Source: a virus. Taken from it: a stretch of 32,807 nt of DNA. A program made the translations under genes and the position numbers. Within the stretch, counting starts at the first letter, position 1. Every line of letters begins with the position of its first letter. The stretch is from IMG/VR virus record IMGVR_UViG_3300005549_000192, positions 1 through 32,807 of that record, one strand, 5' to 3'. This document shows, in pieces, positions 2,796 through 31,890 of the stretch. The notes under the pieces are model-generated. The model did not search any database and was not told the origin of the DNA. It worked only from the letters and a program-made list of their open reading frames with translations.

Positions 2796-2809
2796 CGTCT
2801 ACGATGTCC
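2796..2809 (-). promoter_or_regulatory. Promoter-like 14-base motif, copy 1
   Basis: The plus strand reads CGTCTACGATGTCC (minus strand GGACATCGTAGACG). The identical 14 bases recur at 18511-18524 and 20979-20992. All three copies lie between genes, 30-33 bases upstream of a leftward start codon. This copy precedes the gene starting at 2762. It also lies just ahead of the divergent plus-strand gene at 2815. The role as a phage-specific promoter core is inferred from repetition and constant spacing. Confidence 0.6.
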
Positions 2810-2818
2810 CCGACATGA
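2804..2818 (+). CDS. Possible 4-codon leader ORF coupled to the SANT/Myb-like gene
   Basis: AGGAG at 2791-2795 is placed ideally (8 bases) for ATG at 2804, not for the gene start at 2815. Translation from 2804 gives Met-Ser-Pro-Thr and stops at TGA 2816-2818, which overlaps the ATG at 2815 as ATGA. This could be a translation-coupling leader peptide, or simply a coincidence within the promoter-like motif it overlaps. Confidence 0.3.
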   Translation: MSPT

Positions 2819-3063
2819 CCCGCTCTGCATGGACGCCCAAAGAGCGCGCGGGCCTCGCCGCGTTCTATCCCGCCATCGCCGCCAAACGGATGCAGGAGCT
2901 TCTGCCTGGGAGAACCGAGAAGGCGATCCGCCAGGCGGCCTTCGATCTAGGGATCAAGAAGTGCGAGGCGAGGCGCAGGGAACAGGGGACAGAGAACGTC
3001 AACCGGCGCTGGCATCCCGAGGGTCCGCGGGTCTTCAAGGAACCCAGATCCCCGACGCAGTAG
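2815..3063 (+). CDS. Small SANT/Myb-like DNA-binding protein
   Basis: The 82-residue protein has an N-terminal domain of the phage SANT/Myb-like type: W at residue 6 in a WTPKE start, an acidic/hydrophobic first helix, a Tyr-Pro turn, then LLPGRTEKAIRQAA and LGIKK, which form the turn and recognition helix. The C-terminal 30 residues are basic and probably unstructured. It lies on the plus strand, opposite to every other gene in this part of the genome, and diverges from the gene at 2762 across the promoter-like motif. A regulatory role is reasonable but unproven. ATG at 2815 lacks its own well-spaced Shine-Dalgarno sequence and may depend on the short ORF at 2804. Confidence 0.7.
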   Translation: MTRSAWTPKERAGLAAFYPAIAAKRMQELLPGRTEKAIRQAAFDLGIKKCEARRREQGTENVNRRWHPEGPRVFKEPRSPTQ

Positions 3064-3066
3064 AGG

Positions 3067-3159
3067 GCGGACCGGGTGGCTTGTCAGGGCCGCCAAGGCG
3101 TCTTCACCCCGGAGGGAAAGTCCAAGGAACCCTCCAGGTCATCCTTGAGCCCGGTCCGC
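3067..3159 (+). ncRNA. Candidate structured RNA with closing stem, two hairpins and pseudoknot
   Basis: The stretch lies in the 173-base gap between two plus-strand genes. GCGGACCGGG (3067-3076) and CCCGGTCCGC (3150-3159) form a perfect 10-base-pair outer stem. Inside, GGTGGC (3075-3080) pairs with GCCGCC (3089-3094), and GGAGGG (3111-3116) pairs with CCCTCC (3130-3135), extendable by two C-G pairs past a bulged A. The 13-base loop of the second hairpin contains CAAGGA (3123-3128), complementary to TCCTTG (3142-3147) in the strand leading back to the outer stem, so a pseudoknot can form. This resembles a riboswitch aptamer or other cis-acting RNA in architecture. I recognise no known family. 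No covariation evidence is available here. Confidence 0.45.
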
Positions 3160-3161
3160 GC

Positions 3162-3230
3162 ATCCCAGCCTACTCCTCCAATCGATTCTCCAAGAGACCC
3201 CTTCCTGGGATTCCTTCTGACCTGTAGGCT
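3162..3230 (+). promoter_or_regulatory. Candidate RNA switch controlling the ribosome site of the gene at 3237
   Basis: Two perfect 7-base pairings compete. ATCCCAG (3162-3168) pairs with CTGGGAT (3205-3211), and AGCCTAC (3167-3173) pairs with GTAGGCT (3224-3230). They share bases 3167-3168, so both cannot form fully. The second pairing covers the only Shine-Dalgarno-like bases (TAGG, 3225-3228), 8 bases before ATG 3237. This is the layout of a sequester/anti-sequester platform. Single 7-base repeats can arise by chance in a gap of this size, so the call depends on the adjacent structured element. Confidence 0.3.
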
Positions 3231-3236
3231 TCTCGT

Positions 3237-3776
3237 ATGGCAACCGAGACCGATCAACGCATCTTCGTCTGCGGCGTGACCCAGTACGCCATGTCCTCGG
3301 GCAAGTTCGAGGCCGACGACATCGTGCGCCTCGCTGAGCGCGCCAGAGACGCCTTCGTGGCGCTCTGGGGTCAACCCACGCCCGACGCTACCTACGCGCC
3401 GCGCCCGTCTCCAGGAGGCTTCCAGAGGCCTCGGACGGCCAGCGCTCCACAGGCCACGATCCAGCCCGAGACGAAGCCCTTCTCGGTGTGGGGTGGCGAC
3501 CGTGCCTACTTCGGGAAGACCGGCCAGGAAGCCTACGGAATGCCGATTCGGGAGGTCGACTGGGCTCTCTGGGTCGATCAGGCTGCCAAGGGCGATTCAC
3601 GGGCTAAGCAAGCCCTCGAGATCATGGCTAAGGGCACCATCGGAGATGAGCCCAAGTGGCACCGAGCGAACACGATGAAGATCGCTCGCGCCAAGGCCTG
3701 CCTCGCCATGCTCCAGAACGGCCAGTTCCAGCCGGCCGTGGACGAAGGTCCGCCTCCCGAGATCACACCCTTCTAG
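3237..3776 (+). CDS. Unknown protein with a Phe-ended acidic tail
   Basis: The 179-residue soluble protein is not one I recognise. Residues 1-45 form a helical domain (IFVCGVTQYAMSSG, then charged helices). A Pro/Ser/Ala-rich linker follows to about residue 80. A second domain starts with FSVWGGDRAYFGKTG and a MPIREVDWALWV segment, faintly like the fold associated with exonuclease-type ssDNA proteins. The last residues, DEGPPPEITPF, recall the acidic tip ending in Pro-Phe of single-strand DNA-binding proteins; this is suggestive only. Its stop shares the CTAG at 3773-3776 with the convergent spanin-like gene. It is preceded by the candidate regulatory RNA. Confidence 0.65.
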   Translation: MATETDQRIFVCGVTQYAMSSGKFEADDIVRLAERARDAFVALWGQPTPDATYAPRPSPGGFQRPRTASAPQATIQPETKPFSVWGGDRAYFGKTGQEAYGMPIREVDWALWVDQAAKGDSRAKQALEIMAKGTIGDEPKWHRANTMKIARAKACLAMLQNGQFQPAVDEGPPPEITPF

Positions 3777-19062: not shown

Positions 19063-20948
19063 CACTTCATCTCCTGACTGGGCATTGCATGGGTTTCTCT
19101 GCTCGCGCCACCAGAACGCGGGCCTTTCATTGGCTGCGGGCGCGCGTTCCTCGAAAAGCCGGCCGGACTTTCGGAGGCCTTCAAGGCCTGACGCGGCTGG
19201 GTATCAACTCCGAGACGCGGCTGAGGCTGAGTCGGCCCAGGCGGAATCCCAGCCATGTTCATCTGCATCTGCATCGCGCCGACGATGTTCGCTTTGTTCA
19301 TGTTGATGATGCGCGCCCAGGAGGGATCGCCCCACTGTTCAGCCTTCCTGGCTGCGAGCAATCCCCACTCGATCCACGGCATCTGCGGGATCATGGGGCC
19401 GAAGGTCGCGATCCAGGCGTCCTGCTGCTGCGCACGCTCGGCTTCGAGCAGCTCGGATGAGTAGCGCATCGAGATCGGTTCGACTTCGATATCCATGTCC
19501 TCGAGCAGCTCGGCGTGCTTCTTCCCTCCGAGCATGACCGGATCCTCGATCGGCTCGCCGGTCATCGGATCGACGAAGACCTCGTTCGCCTCCTGCCCGA
19601 GCGGGATCCTCGAGAGCGGGTGCATCACCGCGTACCAGGCCTCCTTGGCCATGATCGGCTTCACCTGGCCGGTCACGAACTTCTCGGTCGCGTAGCCCAT
19701 CCGCACGCCCGACGACATCTGCGCGATCGATGCTTCCGTGGCCGTTCCCTGCCCTGAAACCTGCCCCATCGCGGCCTCGGTCAAGCCGGAGAGCTGTTCG
19801 AGGTTGAGTCCGAGCATCTGGAGCATCTGCACGTGTTGCTGGCTGAGTCCGTTCAGCTCGATCTCCTGCATGGTCTTCTTGATGTCGTCGAACGCCTCGA
19901 CGGTGAAGATCCCAAGATCCATGAACTCGGCAAGCTTCTCCTGGAGCTCGGCGGAGGAGCTGCCAGCAACCGCCACCCCGCGCTTGTACTTGCGGATGGC
20001 CTTGACGGCGGCCTCCCAGACCACGTTGTGGATCTCGGCCTGGGCGTAGGTTGAGGCCAGCATGGAGAGGGGCACAGAGCGGTCCGGGACGTAGAGGTAG
20101 CCCGAGAAGGTGTAGGGACCGTCCCGAGGCCCCCAGAAGGGCCTGGGAGCTCGCAGGAACTCGCCGGACTCCCGGGCCACCGTGTAGATCGTCCCGTGGA
20201 AGCCTTCCTCTGCGAGCGGCTTGAAGGCCCTGCCGAGCTCGTCCTTGGCCTTCTCCAGCGTGACCTCCGGCACCCACATCTCCCAGTACTCGATCTCGTC
20301 ACGGTCGAAGCTGTCCGCCAATTTCTCGCCGCGCTTCTGACGGTCCGGGACCTCGCCCGCCTCCTCGATCGCCTTCTTGTCCCAACCCCGCTGGGGCTCC
20401 TCCTTGGCCTCCCGGAGGACTGAGTCCTTGTCGCGGATGATCCGGTGGGCCTGGAAGCGGGCTTCCGAATGCTTGATCGCGACCGGATCCCAGACATAGT
20501 CGAGGAGCGAGAGCCGGACCGTGTTGGGCCGGTAGGGCGGGTCCTCGCGCTCGAGCATGCCGAGCGCCGGGCGCGGCTGGGTGAGACTGACACACCACTT
20601 GAAGAACCAGTCCGTCGCCAGCTCCTCGACGGTCTTCTTCAAGTTCTGGAGCTCGGCGTTCCGGTTGACCGCGAACTCGACCGCCTTGTTCAGGGCTGCC
20701 GCCGAGCCTTGGCGCGGCGTCTTCGTCCTGACCCTCGGATTCCCGGACGCCAGGAGCGGCAAAAAGCGCGAGAGGATCTTGTAGGCGTGGTTGTTGAAAT
20801 CGACCGCGCGCGCCTGGCCCCTCCTGTACCCAGGTCCCACGTAGCGCTCGATCGAATCGTAGTAGGGGGACCCGAGGTAGCGATCCCTGTGGTCGACCGA
20901 TTTCCGGACCTCGTCTGCGAGGCCTGAGGCAGTGAGGTCGAGTGCCAC
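19062..20948 (-). CDS. Portal protein
   Basis: The 628-residue protein lies between the terminase/glycan block and the scaffold. It shows portal features: a helical N-terminus with R-R-G and FNNHAYKILSRFLPLLASG, YVWDPVAIKHSEAR in the middle, a long stem helix region near residues 315-400 (AAVKAIRKYKRGV ... QMLQMLGLNLEQLSG), a Thr-Ala-Thr-Glu clip/wing segment (GQGTATEASIAQMSSG) and a disordered Pro/Gln-rich C-terminus. Portals form the 12-subunit DNA gate and the docking site for terminase and tail adaptor. GTG 20948 is the start, 30 bases after motif copy 3. There is no clear Shine-Dalgarno sequence. Confidence 0.8.
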   Translation of the reverse strand: MALDLTASGLADEVRKSVDHRDRYLGSPYYDSIERYVGPGYRRGQARAVDFNNHAYKILSRFLPLLASGNPRVRTKTPRQGSAAALNKAVEFAVNRNAELQNLKKTVEELATDWFFKWCVSLTQPRPALGMLEREDPPYRPNTVRLSLLDYVWDPVAIKHSEARFQAHRIIRDKDSVLREAKEEPQRGWDKKAIEEAGEVPDRQKRGEKLADSFDRDEIEYWEMWVPEVTLEKAKDELGRAFKPLAEEGFHGTIYTVARESGEFLRAPRPFWGPRDGPYTFSGYLYVPDRSVPLSMLASTYAQAEIHNVVWEAAVKAIRKYKRGVAVAGSSSAELQEKLAEFMDLGIFTVEAFDDIKKTMQEIELNGLSQQHVQMLQMLGLNLEQLSGLTEAAMGQVSGQGTATEASIAQMSSGVRMGYATEKFVTGQVKPIMAKEAWYAVMHPLSRIPLGQEANEVFVDPMTGEPIEDPVMLGGKKHAELLEDMDIEVEPISMRYSSELLEAERAQQQDAWIATFGPMIPQMPWIEWGLLAARKAEQWGDPSWARIINMNKANIVGAMQMQMNMAGIPPGPTQPQPRLGVDTQPRQALKASESPAGFSRNARPQPMKGPRSGGASRETHAMPSQEMK

Positions 20949-24877: not shown

Positions 24878-25434
24878 CGCTTGCGCGCCTCCTCTAGCTC
24901 TTCTTGGGTGTTCACGGTCATGTAGCCCTCGGGGATGAGATCGATCGTCCTGGCGTTGAGCTGAAACCAGTCGTGGCCAGCGTGCTCACGATCAGTGTGC
25001 CAGTTCGGGGTGTCCTCCCAGCACTGGATCCAGTCATCGTACGTGCCGGCGTGGAGCGCTCCGGGCACGAAAACCGGCTCCTGCTGTTTCTCGATGTGCT
25101 CGATCGCCCGGAAGATCCAGGCTTTGCGCAGGAAGGGCGCGTCGGCGCACACGCGCACGAGGATCGGGGGCTTCTCGCGCTTCAGGAACTCCACGTAGCG
25201 GGCAAGCACGTCATGGAGCGGACCGGCCTTGCAGAGCATTCCGTGGTCGTGCGCGTAGTTGGCGAGTACGTCGTCGCTCGGCTGGGTGGAAGTCAGGATC
25301 ACGCGAGTCCAGGCCGGAGCTTCGATCGCCTCCCATACACGTCGGATCATCGGCTCACCGCAGAGGTCCATGAGCACCTTGCCGGGGAGCCGCTTTGAGC
25401 TCATGCGGCATTGAATCGCGACGATTGGCTTCAC
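24853..25434 (-). CDS. SpsF/PseF-like cytidylyltransferase
   Basis: The 193-residue protein starts at GTG 25434, which overlaps the terminase stop as GTGA. The nucleotidyltransferase signature IQCRMSSKRLPGK is at residues 7-19, then LCGEPMIRRVWE, ILTSTQPSDDVLANYA, and a DVLARYVEF segment, as in SpsF/PseF enzymes that activate nonulosonic acids with CTP. ADAPFL near residue 115 resembles the metal-binding DxP region. It is the first gene after the terminase in the glycan block. The activated sugar could be a pseudaminic- or legionaminic-like acid, but no synthase gene is in the window. Confidence 0.82.
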   Translation of the reverse strand: MKPIVAIQCRMSSKRLPGKVLMDLCGEPMIRRVWEAIEAPAWTRVILTSTQPSDDVLANYAHDHGMLCKAGPLHDVLARYVEFLKREKPPILVRVCADAPFLRKAWIFRAIEHIEKQQEPVFVPGALHAGTYDDWIQCWEDTPNWHTDREHAGHDWFQLNARTIDLIPEGYMTVNTQEELEEARKRWAAKLGA

Positions 25435-26981
25435 TTCTCCCAACTGAAACCGTCTCCTCTCTCCTCGCGCTTCTTTCGAAGGATCTGCCTCCACTCGGCG
25501 TCATTCACTTCGTTCGGTGCGTTGTCCTTGATCGGGATGCCGAATCCGCGGGCGAAGTTGAGCGTCTGATCGTAACGGTCGCATGCGACCGCATGCTCGT
25601 CACATTTGCCGTCAGGCTTCATCGACGGCGAGCCGTCCGCGTTGAGCGCGTAGACCCAGCTTTCGATTTCTTGCTCTTCCGTCGCCGGACGGCCCGTGCG
25701 CCGGAGTTCTTCGTCGATGCCTTGCGACCAGTTCTGGAGAAAGTAGGTACGTACGTGACCGTCCTTAGGATTCCTGAGCCCTTCCCTAAGAAGGTCAATT
25801 TGTGGCTCAAGAATGGGTGAGCGACGATGGCCTCCGCCAATCGGAGGGCACTTGACCACGACACGGGGGAGAGAACGTCCGCCCGCCTTGCCAAGGCGGA
25901 GCTGGAACGCGGAGATGTTTTCCGGGTCATGGGGATCGCAGGAGAAGTGTCTGACGGCGTACTTGTTGTACCAGTCGGCTGCGACCTCGGCCCATTCCTC
26001 CTGCTGCCAGCGCAGGCGGATGATCTCATCGCAGCGATACCTGCGGATGTGGGGGTGCCATTTCGGAGAGTCGTAGGCCCAGAGCTGCATTGCACCTGGG
26101 TCAGGATGCCAGCCGAAGTCGACCCCGGCCGTGAAATAGGCGACCCGGATGGGCTGCTCTTGACCCTGGAGGTGGATCATCCACCCAAACTGCCCAGCGT
26201 TCTCGAGCTCGCCGAAGAGGTTGTGAACGCGCGGGTCGTAGTTGTCGAGGATGACGCCTTCGGCCGCGACCCAGCGGTTCTTCAGGAAGCGTTCACGGCG
26301 GACCCCAGTGAGTGTCGACTCCAGGATCTCCACGTACTCCTTGCCCTCCTTGGTCCACGCGCCGGAGGGGTACTCCCCGTCGTAGAAGAGGGGGTTGTCG
26401 TAATGGCGGAAGGAGAAGCGCTGGCGGTTATCGCCGCACTTCTCGGGCGCGAAACGCACGTTCAGCCAGTGCGAGGGCGCGGCTGGGTTGCAGTCGGCGA
26501 CGAGCTGGTGGTAGGGGGTCTTGAAGGAGGAGAGCCGCGTGGCGAGCACTTCCCAGTCGTTCTGGGAGGTCTCCTCTGCCTGGATGATGAGCACACGGTC
26601 CCACTTGGTACTGAGGATCGGGGAAGCCGTGTCCCGCATGGACTCGAGGCCAGCGAAGTACACAACCGACCCGTTGGGGTAGGTGTAGAGATCCTGGTGC
26701 TCCTTGGAGGCCGTGGGCGAGACGGCCGGGTGGCCCAGCCAGAGGATGTCGTCCCGCCAGTCCTTCAGGACCGACTCGTTCATGGACTTGCGGGTCTGCC
26801 GGCAGATGAGCTGCCGGGAGCCCGGGTAGGCCATGGCGGTCATGTCGACCTTGAGGAGAAGCGCCCAGGACTTGCCACAGCGCGTGCCGCCCTCACACAG
26901 GGCCTCTCTGCCCTGGAAGAGGACGAACTGGGCGGCCGGACCTCGGACGATTCGTCGTCGGTCTACGACCTCTTGGGTCAC
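25431..26981 (-). CDS. Terminase large subunit
   Basis: The 516-residue DNA-packaging ATPase-nuclease has Walker A GGTRCGKS at residues 31-38, Walker B RVLIIQAEE around 129-137, the ATPase coupling-like VADCNP at 162-167, and the first nuclease Asp in AGVDFGWHPDPGA at about 288, with later HFSCDPHDPE and AVACDRYD acidic positions. GTG 26981 is the start (GTGA overlap with the preceding stop); a longer upstream frame is not needed. It translocates DNA through the portal and cuts the concatemer. A terminase small subunit is not recognised next to it. Confidence 0.92.
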   Translation of the reverse strand: MTQEVVDRRRIVRGPAAQFVLFQGREALCEGGTRCGKSWALLLKVDMTAMAYPGSRQLICRQTRKSMNESVLKDWRDDILWLGHPAVSPTASKEHQDLYTYPNGSVVYFAGLESMRDTASPILSTKWDRVLIIQAEETSQNDWEVLATRLSSFKTPYHQLVADCNPAAPSHWLNVRFAPEKCGDNRQRFSFRHYDNPLFYDGEYPSGAWTKEGKEYVEILESTLTGVRRERFLKNRWVAAEGVILDNYDPRVHNLFGELENAGQFGWMIHLQGQEQPIRVAYFTAGVDFGWHPDPGAMQLWAYDSPKWHPHIRRYRCDEIIRLRWQQEEWAEVAADWYNKYAVRHFSCDPHDPENISAFQLRLGKAGGRSLPRVVVKCPPIGGGHRRSPILEPQIDLLREGLRNPKDGHVRTYFLQNWSQGIDEELRRTGRPATEEQEIESWVYALNADGSPSMKPDGKCDEHAVACDRYDQTLNFARGFGIPIKDNAPNEVNDAEWRQILRKKREERGDGFSWEK

Positions 26982-27370
26982 GTGAGCACCGGGCCGATCC
27001 AGTCGGTGAGCTCGCCCCACTGACCCCCAGGCTGCGCCGTTTGCGTTCTGAGCCACCAGCCCCTGGCCATGCGCTTGCCGCCCCGCTTGGCCTTGCGCCT
27101 GCGCCATTCGACCAGGCAGAGCGTCAGGTGGCCTACCAGACGCTCCCGGAGCGGGCTCTGGTCGATCAGGTCCCGGTGGGGCTTCAGGGAGCCGTAGGAG
27201 CAGTTCTGGGCAAGGATCGGGGCTGCTGCATCACTTCGGATGATGAGGGAGTCCCCGATCCCGAAGAGATCGTGTCGTCGTCGCCCGTAGTACTGCTGGA
27301 CGGTCGAGCAGAGCCAGCCTTGCTCCTCGGCCCAGCGCTTGGTGAGGGCATTGCTAGAAAACCTAGCCAC
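26978..27370 (-). CDS. PD-(D/E)XK nuclease-like protein before terminase
   Basis: The 130-residue protein starts at GTG 27370. RWAEEQGW then YGRRRHDLFGIGDSLII and ILAQNCS resembles the core of resolvase/VRR-NUC-like nucleases (acidic residue, then Gln-x-Asn), followed by a basic C-terminus (WRRRKAKRGGKRMARGWW). It overlaps the HNH gene by 8 bases and the terminase by 4. It could process packaging substrates or junctions. The nuclease identity is tentative because key residues are placed by eye. Confidence 0.5.
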   Translation of the reverse strand: MARFSSNALTKRWAEEQGWLCSTVQQYYGRRRHDLFGIGDSLIIRSDAAAPILAQNCSYGSLKPHRDLIDQSPLRERLVGHLTLCLVEWRRRKAKRGGKRMARGWWLRTQTAQPGGQWGELTDWIGPVLT

Positions 27371-31150: not shown

Positions 31151-31890
31151 AGAACCTCGCGCCGATCCTGTGGACACTCATCGTTTGCATCCTGATTGGC
31201 CTTTACGTCATCAATCCTCATAACCCTAGAACATCCGATCTGGCCGTCGCTCACGACACAGGGAAGAGCCTGCCGCTTCACCTGAGCGCTGCCCGTGGTC
31301 CCTCTCCCTCCTCATCCAAGGGCAGCGTTGGCGACGGCCAGTCTTTCACCCCCGGATCCGTGGATCCGCCTGACGATCCTACTCCTCCTCTACTGGGGGG
31401 CTCGGACGGGTCCGGGGGTGTCTTTCCGATCGACACGCGCGAGGAGATCGAGCCCGGCATGCTCCCCACCGTTGACGGTCTGTACGAGCTCACCGTGGCG
31501 CGCTTCATGGATGAGGAGTTCCTCGCGCTGACGCCCGCACGAGCGCGTGAGCTCCTGCCGGTCGACGACGAGATCCCCGACTCATCGCTTCCAGGCTCGC
31601 TCGTGCAGGCGCTCGGGATCGGCCTACCGACCTACGAGGACTGCGTGCGCGGCTTCCAGCGCCTCAGCGTCAAGCGGCTCCTGACGCAAGTGCAGACGCT
31701 CTCGCTCGCAGCGACCTCGCTCGAGATGACGCCGATTGAGCGACGCACGAAGGAGTTCACGGCCCGGCTCGAGGAGCTCGAGCGCAACCGCGCCACGCTC
31801 ACGCTGGCGCTCATGCACGAGCTCGATTGCTCGACGGGATACAAGTCGTGGAGTTTGCTCTGGTCCGTCTATTCGGAATGGGTCAAGTGA
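31147..31890 (+). CDS. Membrane-anchored protein with Gly/Pro linker and coiled coil
   Basis: The 247-residue protein starts at ATG 31147 (ATGA overlap). Residues 4-22 (LAPILWTLIVCILIGLYVI) form one membrane span. A Ser/Gly/Pro/Asp-rich linker runs to about 95 (GGSDGSGGVFPIDT). A helical domain follows, including a coiled-coil-like segment at about 200-235 (FTARLEELERNRATLTLALMHELD). The plan suggests an inner-membrane protein with a periplasmic or cytoplasmic helical domain; superinfection exclusion or lysis roles are only guesses. Confidence 0.55.
   Translation: MKNLAPILWTLIVCILIGLYVINPHNPRTSDLAVAHDTGKSLPLHLSAARGPSPSSSKGSVGDGQSFTPGSVDPPDDPTPPLLGGSDGSGGVFPIDTREEIEPGMLPTVDGLYELTVARFMDEEFLALTPARARELLPVDDEIPDSSLPGSLVQALGIGLPTYEDCVRGFQRLSVKRLLTQVQTLSLAATSLEMTPIERRTKEFTARLEELERNRATLTLALMHELDCSTGYKSWSLLWSVYSEWVK

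Follow-up and report, generated by a model that had tools for sequence, protein, structure and literature searches.

Genomic setting of the element

The window, by which we mean the whole stretch of DNA analysed, is a virus record of 32.8 kb (32,807 nt), and the element described here is numbered by window positions. It lies in a 173-nt gap between two plus-strand genes, a small HTH (D5-like) regulator gene (2815-3063, with its TAG stop codon at 3061-3063) and an SSB-like gene (3237-3776, 179 aa). At 3067-3159 we predict a small noncoding RNA that would be read from the minus strand, convergent with the HTH gene, with its 5' end at about 3159, a length of 93 nt to the end of the closing stem and its own two ends paired. 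The HTH gene product matches the phrog_323 'D5-like' regulator (E 7e-6) and its protein model is helical and HTH-like, with a mean pLDDT of 67; a -10-like TACGAT of leaderless type stands on the plus strand at 2800-2805, 9 nt before the ATG. The SSB-like protein, for which no Pfam or PHROG match was found, ends in ITPF. A -10-like TAGGCT (3225-3230, plus strand) precedes its ATG at 3237 by six bases, so that transcription of the gene does not have to cross the RNA region. An ITPF or ETPF C-terminus goes together with the N-terminal motif IFVTGVVGRAMGSGKF in the SSB-like protein, whose first ~45 residues are common to otherwise unrelated phage proteins (L010, L011, L024-L031). Beside the HTH gene lies a conserved minus-strand gene (about 2064-2765) with the motif CEGP...AVNRA, the window protein of which gave no Pfam or PHROG match.

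The large terminase (558 aa) is of the phrog_2/979 type, an ordinary large-terminase family, and the portal protein of the window has no match among 50,697 named phage records. These observations concern the minus-strand positions 19065-20948 and 25434-27107; among IMG/VR records, no more than a handful have the portal or the terminase in common with the window. The portal without a named match and the few records that share these genes point to a poorly sampled phage group. Several genes of the group look leaderless: a TAGGMT or TACGAT box stands ahead of the start codon at a distance of 6-9 nt (window 2800-2815 and 3225-3237; L020 2794-2808, 5982-6001 and minus 2759; L021), which leaves no room for a Shine-Dalgarno leader. 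Such genes hint at a host that uses leaderless mRNAs. Far from the element, an open reading frame contains two adjacent inverted repeats of 11 and 10 bp (31240-31341 and 31347-31420), and a TAGGAT occurs on the minus strand at 31381.

Pairings within the window

The first-pass annotation, made from the window alone, had proposed a structured RNA domain in this gap, built from an outer stem, two hairpins and a pseudoknot. The perfect 10-bp outer stem is exactly present, with 10/10 positions paired: on the minus strand its 5' arm GCGGACCGGG (3150-3159) pairs with the 3' arm CCCGGTCCGC (3067-3076). The second hairpin (3111-3116/3130-3135) is likewise there as described, 6/6 paired; on the minus strand the arms CCUGGAGGG (3130-3138) and CCCUCCGGG (3108-3116) form nine pairs, including one U-G pair available on that strand only. 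The first hairpin (3075-3080 GGTGGC with 3089-3094 GCCGCC) found no support, as it needs a G-U pair and reuses bases of the outer stem; with 3075-3076 claimed by both, the two cannot both form fully. For the pseudoknot, the 6-nt complement (3123-3128/3142-3147) is present, seven pairs are possible on the minus strand (UCAAGGA/UCCUUGG), and a weaker analogue can be drawn for one relative (L008), but the other (L007) has no counterpart, and we rejected it as a defining feature. Several inner hairpins are possible in the window, and L007 shows just a single strong one.

The outer repeat had also been put well below chance expectation for a gap of this size. It is indeed unusual in shuffles of the gap, but only mildly so when taken alone (P = 0.031). 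Pairings as short as the smaller ones of the element are common in DNA of this kind, and across the window there are 9 inverted repeats with a perfect stem of at least 10 against 6.35 expected. Owing to this stem probability, the nine repeats against about six expected and the conflict over the first hairpin, the case from the window sequence is modest, and it is the comparison with relatives that gives the element its significance.

The segment does not look coding, in agreement with its earlier description. Short minus-strand frames after the RNA start (12, 4 and 31 codons by reading) are unrelated among the three phages and were dismissed as genes. Readthrough of the HTH stop codon was dismissed as well: an in-frame continuation is possible, but the signal of GC content by codon position fades in the gap and is gone after about 3180. 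The search of Rfam proposed at the outset returned no known family in the window at gathering or permissive thresholds, and the elements of the three phages described below gave only chance-level hits, far below gathering scores. The ten-base direct repeat CAAGGAACCC occurs at 3036-3045, at the end of the HTH coding sequence, and again at 3123-3132, in the loop region of the RNA (P about 0.03); a loop pairing with the HTH coding region was discarded, this repeat being absent in L007 and L008.

Conservation in distant relatives

No direct DNA similarity to phages, viral contigs or related records was found, so that relatives had to be sought through proteins. The SSB-like protein led to L007 (G002, 48.6 kb) and L008 (G003, 46.6 kb), distant relatives whose neighbouring proteins are 35-66% identical to those of the window and which belong to the same phage group by their terminase (59-61% identical) and portal (66%). 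Both carry HTH orthologues (44% identical) and, in the same place beside the HTH gene as in the window, the minus-strand gene (42-43%); SSB-like homologues in L007, L008 and L009 are 33-35% identical.

In both relatives an outer stem of different sequence follows directly after the HTH stop codon. The closing stem of L007 (2051-2139) has 12 bp and a span of 89, whereas that of L008 (2288-2408) has 8 Watson-Crick pairs, or 11 bp with one G-U, and a span of 121, which makes its RNA longer than the other two. The stem starts 3 nt (window), 6 nt (L007) and 17 nt (L008) past the HTH stop. In L007 and L008 no plus-strand gene follows for about 1.3-2 kb past the element, and the next genes are convergent ones on the minus strand. 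The genes downstream of the element thus differ among the phages, whereas its place next to the HTH gene is the same in all three. Between the HTH/RNA locus and the SSB-like gene, L007 and L008 carry minus-strand genes and a gene whose product looks, by eye, like sialic acid synthase (NeuB; L007 4058-4975, L008 3735-4595), an insert that the window does not have. A further record, G001, has the SSB-like gene behind a different upstream gene, with no gap, no such element and no HTH match found. Queries with the HTH, SSB-like, terminase and portal proteins against viral contigs, and with the SSB-like and portal proteins against genome contigs, yielded no additional HTH and RNA loci and no relatives closer than these, and the comparative evidence thus consists of three independent sequences.

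Compensatory changes, which had been named at the outset as a check, are present in these three sequences: in every pairwise comparison, 7/10 closing-stem pairs differ on both sides while the pairing is kept. Pairs were counted by script, as the MAFFT alignment put gaps into the stem arms; when one arm is slid by 1-2 positions, only 0-6 of 11 positions remain paired. When the position of the -10 box is used to set the RNA start, closing-stem pairing of this length is rare in shuffled sequence, at P 0.001 for the window (biased, since the window was chosen for its stem), <1/3000 for L007 and 0.003-0.02 for L008, where the upper value applies to Watson-Crick pairs only. The window and L007 share a common plan, with a closing stem of 10/12 bp, a lead of 11/7 nt, a hairpin of 9/10 pairs and then 31/30 nt. 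The inner hairpin, in the same place, is unlikely by chance in L007 (10 pairs, P 0.027) and not better than chance in the window (P 0.175). The 9-mer GUGAAGACG, common to the window and L007, was left out as evidence (P 0.054).

Directly after the closing stem all three sequences run into a pyrimidine-rich stretch, CCUCUACU in the window (3059-3066), CCUUUCCU in L007 and GCUUCUCU in L008, which may mark the 3' end of the RNA; no canonical terminator was found after the stem. Sequence comparison thus supports the existence of the RNA, its strand, its start point, its closing stem and its position, and bears out the original proposal of a structured RNA in the gene gap.

Strand and probable promoter

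The element had been placed on the plus strand, as a possible riboswitch aptamer. Neither part of this reading was supported: promoter position, G-U pairs and fold energies all favour the minus strand. In the window a -10-like TAGGCT (3167-3172, minus strand) stands 7 nt before the first RNA base, and in the window, L007 and L008 alike the stem is preceded, at a distance of 6-7 nt, by a minus-strand TAGG[AC]T. A descriptor combining TAGG[AC]T, a distance of 6-8 nt and a stem of at least 8 bp was run over 167.6 kb (the window, most of the L007 and L008 records, G001 and G009) and matched exactly these three sites, one per phage, while the window, L007 and L008 records together contain 41 TAGG[AC]T sites; a slightly narrower descriptor found any match in about 3% of window shuffles. 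A stem after a TATAAT in L028 (6351-6197) was set aside as a chance match inside a coding gene.

In L007 the 18-mer CCTGGTAGGATTGCTCAA occurs twice in 12.6 kb, with 0 occurrences expected by chance; one copy stops beside the RNA stem, on the minus strand, and the other a single base short of the SSB-like ATG. This sharing of an 18-mer with the start of the SSB-like gene makes the TAGG[AC]T box credible as a promoter. No canonical -35 element was found. In Mycobacterium tuberculosis, TANNNT centred 7-12 bp before the start dominates, leaderless mRNAs are common and the -35 motif is not conserved (PMC3898074); by its sequence, the TAGG[AC]T box is a credible promoter of this type.

Minus-strand folds are stronger than plus-strand folds in 3/3 records. 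Their z-scores are -3.06 (window), -3.57 (L007) and -2.21 (L008), compared with -2.37 (the exact window element; also -2.05), -1.77 and -0.91 on the plus strand. G-U pairs in the window hairpin, in the L007 hairpin and in the closing-stem extension of L008 form on the minus strand only; if the plus strand is read instead, those of the last two turn into A-C mismatches.

Proposed role and alternative explanations

It is very likely, judging from the comparison of the three loci, that the element is a real, structured small RNA of the minus strand. That this RNA in addition has an antisense role like that of lambda OOP is the proposal we put forward, tentatively and at somewhat less than even confidence. 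Transcription itself, the exact 3' end, the target and the effect of the RNA we infer as follows. An RNA of about 93-100 nt would be made from its own minus-strand promoter (-10 TAGGCT, 3172-3167), with its first base at 3159 or beside it and its last near 3060. The two ends of the RNA would pair in the closing stem, of 10 bp here and 11-12 bp in the relatives, and enclose a 5'-proximal hairpin and a 3' segment of roughly 30 nt. Running head-on toward the 3' end of the HTH gene, it would be the full complement of any 3' UTR of the HTH mRNA. As a cis-antisense RNA it could pair with the 3' end of that mRNA, lower its stability and so tune a phage regulator, as OOP does with cII; the RNA would owe both its protection and its end to the closing stem. 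A cis relation is favoured because the RNA keeps the HTH gene as its neighbour although other genes around it change.

The likeness to OOP extends to several features. Lambda OOP lies between cII and O and runs toward the cII 3' end (PMC5869508), overlapping cII by 52 bases and causing RNase III-dependent loss of the message (PMC5869508; PMC12197685). As in pO-oop-tO, we have here a predicted small phage RNA with its own promoter that lies in a gap between a regulator and a replication gene and would run head-on into the 3' end of the regulator gene, the window order being HTH gene, convergent RNA and SSB-like gene. By sequence, the counterpart of the OOP promoter is the minus-strand TAGGMT, which in each of the three phages stands 6-7 nt ahead of the RNA and faces the 3' end of the HTH gene. 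There are also differences. The RNA up to its closing stem stops 3-17 nt short of the HTH coding sequence, so that any overlap would not go beyond the stop codon and 3' UTR if the RNA does not continue further, whereas OOP overlaps 52 bases of its target; OOP ends at a clear terminator and no canonical one is seen here; and in the RNA described here a conserved closing stem joins the 5' end to the 3' end. An antisense RNA with perfect complementarity has no need of such a stem, and its conservation could allow another role.

It is accordingly conceivable, at lower confidence than the antisense proposal, that a real minus-strand RNA acts by structure, free-standing and bound to protein or host machinery, for instance as a 6S-like RNA that binds RNA polymerase, as a virion or packaging RNA, or as an sRNA acting in trans. 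Its structure is kept while its sequence is free to change, its ends are paired as in many RNA-protein particles, and the promoter shared with the SSB-like gene in L007 suggests that it may be a working phage product. On the other hand, it is next to the HTH gene in 3/3 phages whatever lies downstream, and Rfam yielded neither a 6S nor a pRNA match. A phi29-type packaging RNA resembles it in having about 100 nt, paired 5' and 3' ends and a structure that is kept while the sequence drifts. However, pRNAs occur with a phi29-like gp16 ATPase and gp10 connector (PMC12670572), and here there is no phi29-like gp16; the ordinary phrog_2 type of the terminase makes a packaging RNA of this kind unlikely, and the paired left and right loops of pRNA were not found in all three members. 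The more specific suggestion that we are dealing with a new family of small end-closed phage RNAs, each forming a structured particle that binds a phage or host protein (e.g., RNA polymerase) and is co-expressed with the SSB-like protein by way of a shared promoter sequence, in phages whose genes appear leaderless and which have no close relatives in culture, we regard as rather unlikely.

Noncoding RNAs that run in reverse direction to the neighbouring gene are also known from non-RepA prophage origins of mycobacteriophages (PMC7157519), and in this respect they resemble the RNA described here. Those origins, however, are linked to parABS, the deleted segments were about 400-500 bp and they are needed for prophage replication, whereas an unsystematic look noticed no parABS next to the element.

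Improbable, in our view, is that the element is a leader or antitermination site at the start of a longer minus-strand transcript that runs antisense through the HTH gene into the minus-strand gene at 2765-2064. This gene follows in the same place in 3/3 phages (42-43% identical) and the stem is not directly followed by a canonical terminator, but in L007 and L008 a separate -10 of leaderless type stands at the very start of the minus-strand gene, and the leader would exceed 300 nt.

We consider it very improbable that the element works on the plus strand, whether as a structure within the 3' UTR that ends the HTH mRNA or as a domain of riboswitch kind that serves the downstream gene. It does lie between two plus-strand genes in the window, where the plus strand folds somewhat better than shuffles (z -2.37), and a closing stem around a junction is also seen in riboswitch aptamers. 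Yet no plus-strand gene follows closely in L007 or L008; the convergent minus-strand genes there mean that the element is not the 5' UTR of a nearby plus-strand gene, and together with the -10 box that the SSB-like gene of the window has for itself, apparently of leaderless type and with no room for a leader, they make a riboswitch unlikely. With the weaker plus-strand folds, and G-U pairs and promoter on the minus strand, a riboswitch would be on the wrong strand, without a regulated gene downstream in 2/3 phages and without an Rfam match. Chance inverted repeats in GC-rich DNA, a reading that could appeal to the mild probability of the window stem alone (P 0.031 in the gap) and to the weak Watson-Crick stem of L008 (P 0.02), are hardly believable: three divergent phages agree in place, strand, promoter spacing and pairing, a combination that does not recur elsewhere in 167.6 kb.

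Implications

Sequence comparison suggests that a group of uncultivated bacteriophages carries a structured RNA of roughly 90 to 120 bases. A phage group without a portal match among the named phage records thereby gains an RNA that had not been described before, and the candidate could be assigned to the correct strand from the promoter position, the G-U pairs and the position in divergent relatives. If the structural reading is true, the RNA would represent a new kind of phage RNA particle. If the antisense reading is true, OOP-like control of an HTH regulator would have arisen or persisted far outside the lambdoid phages.
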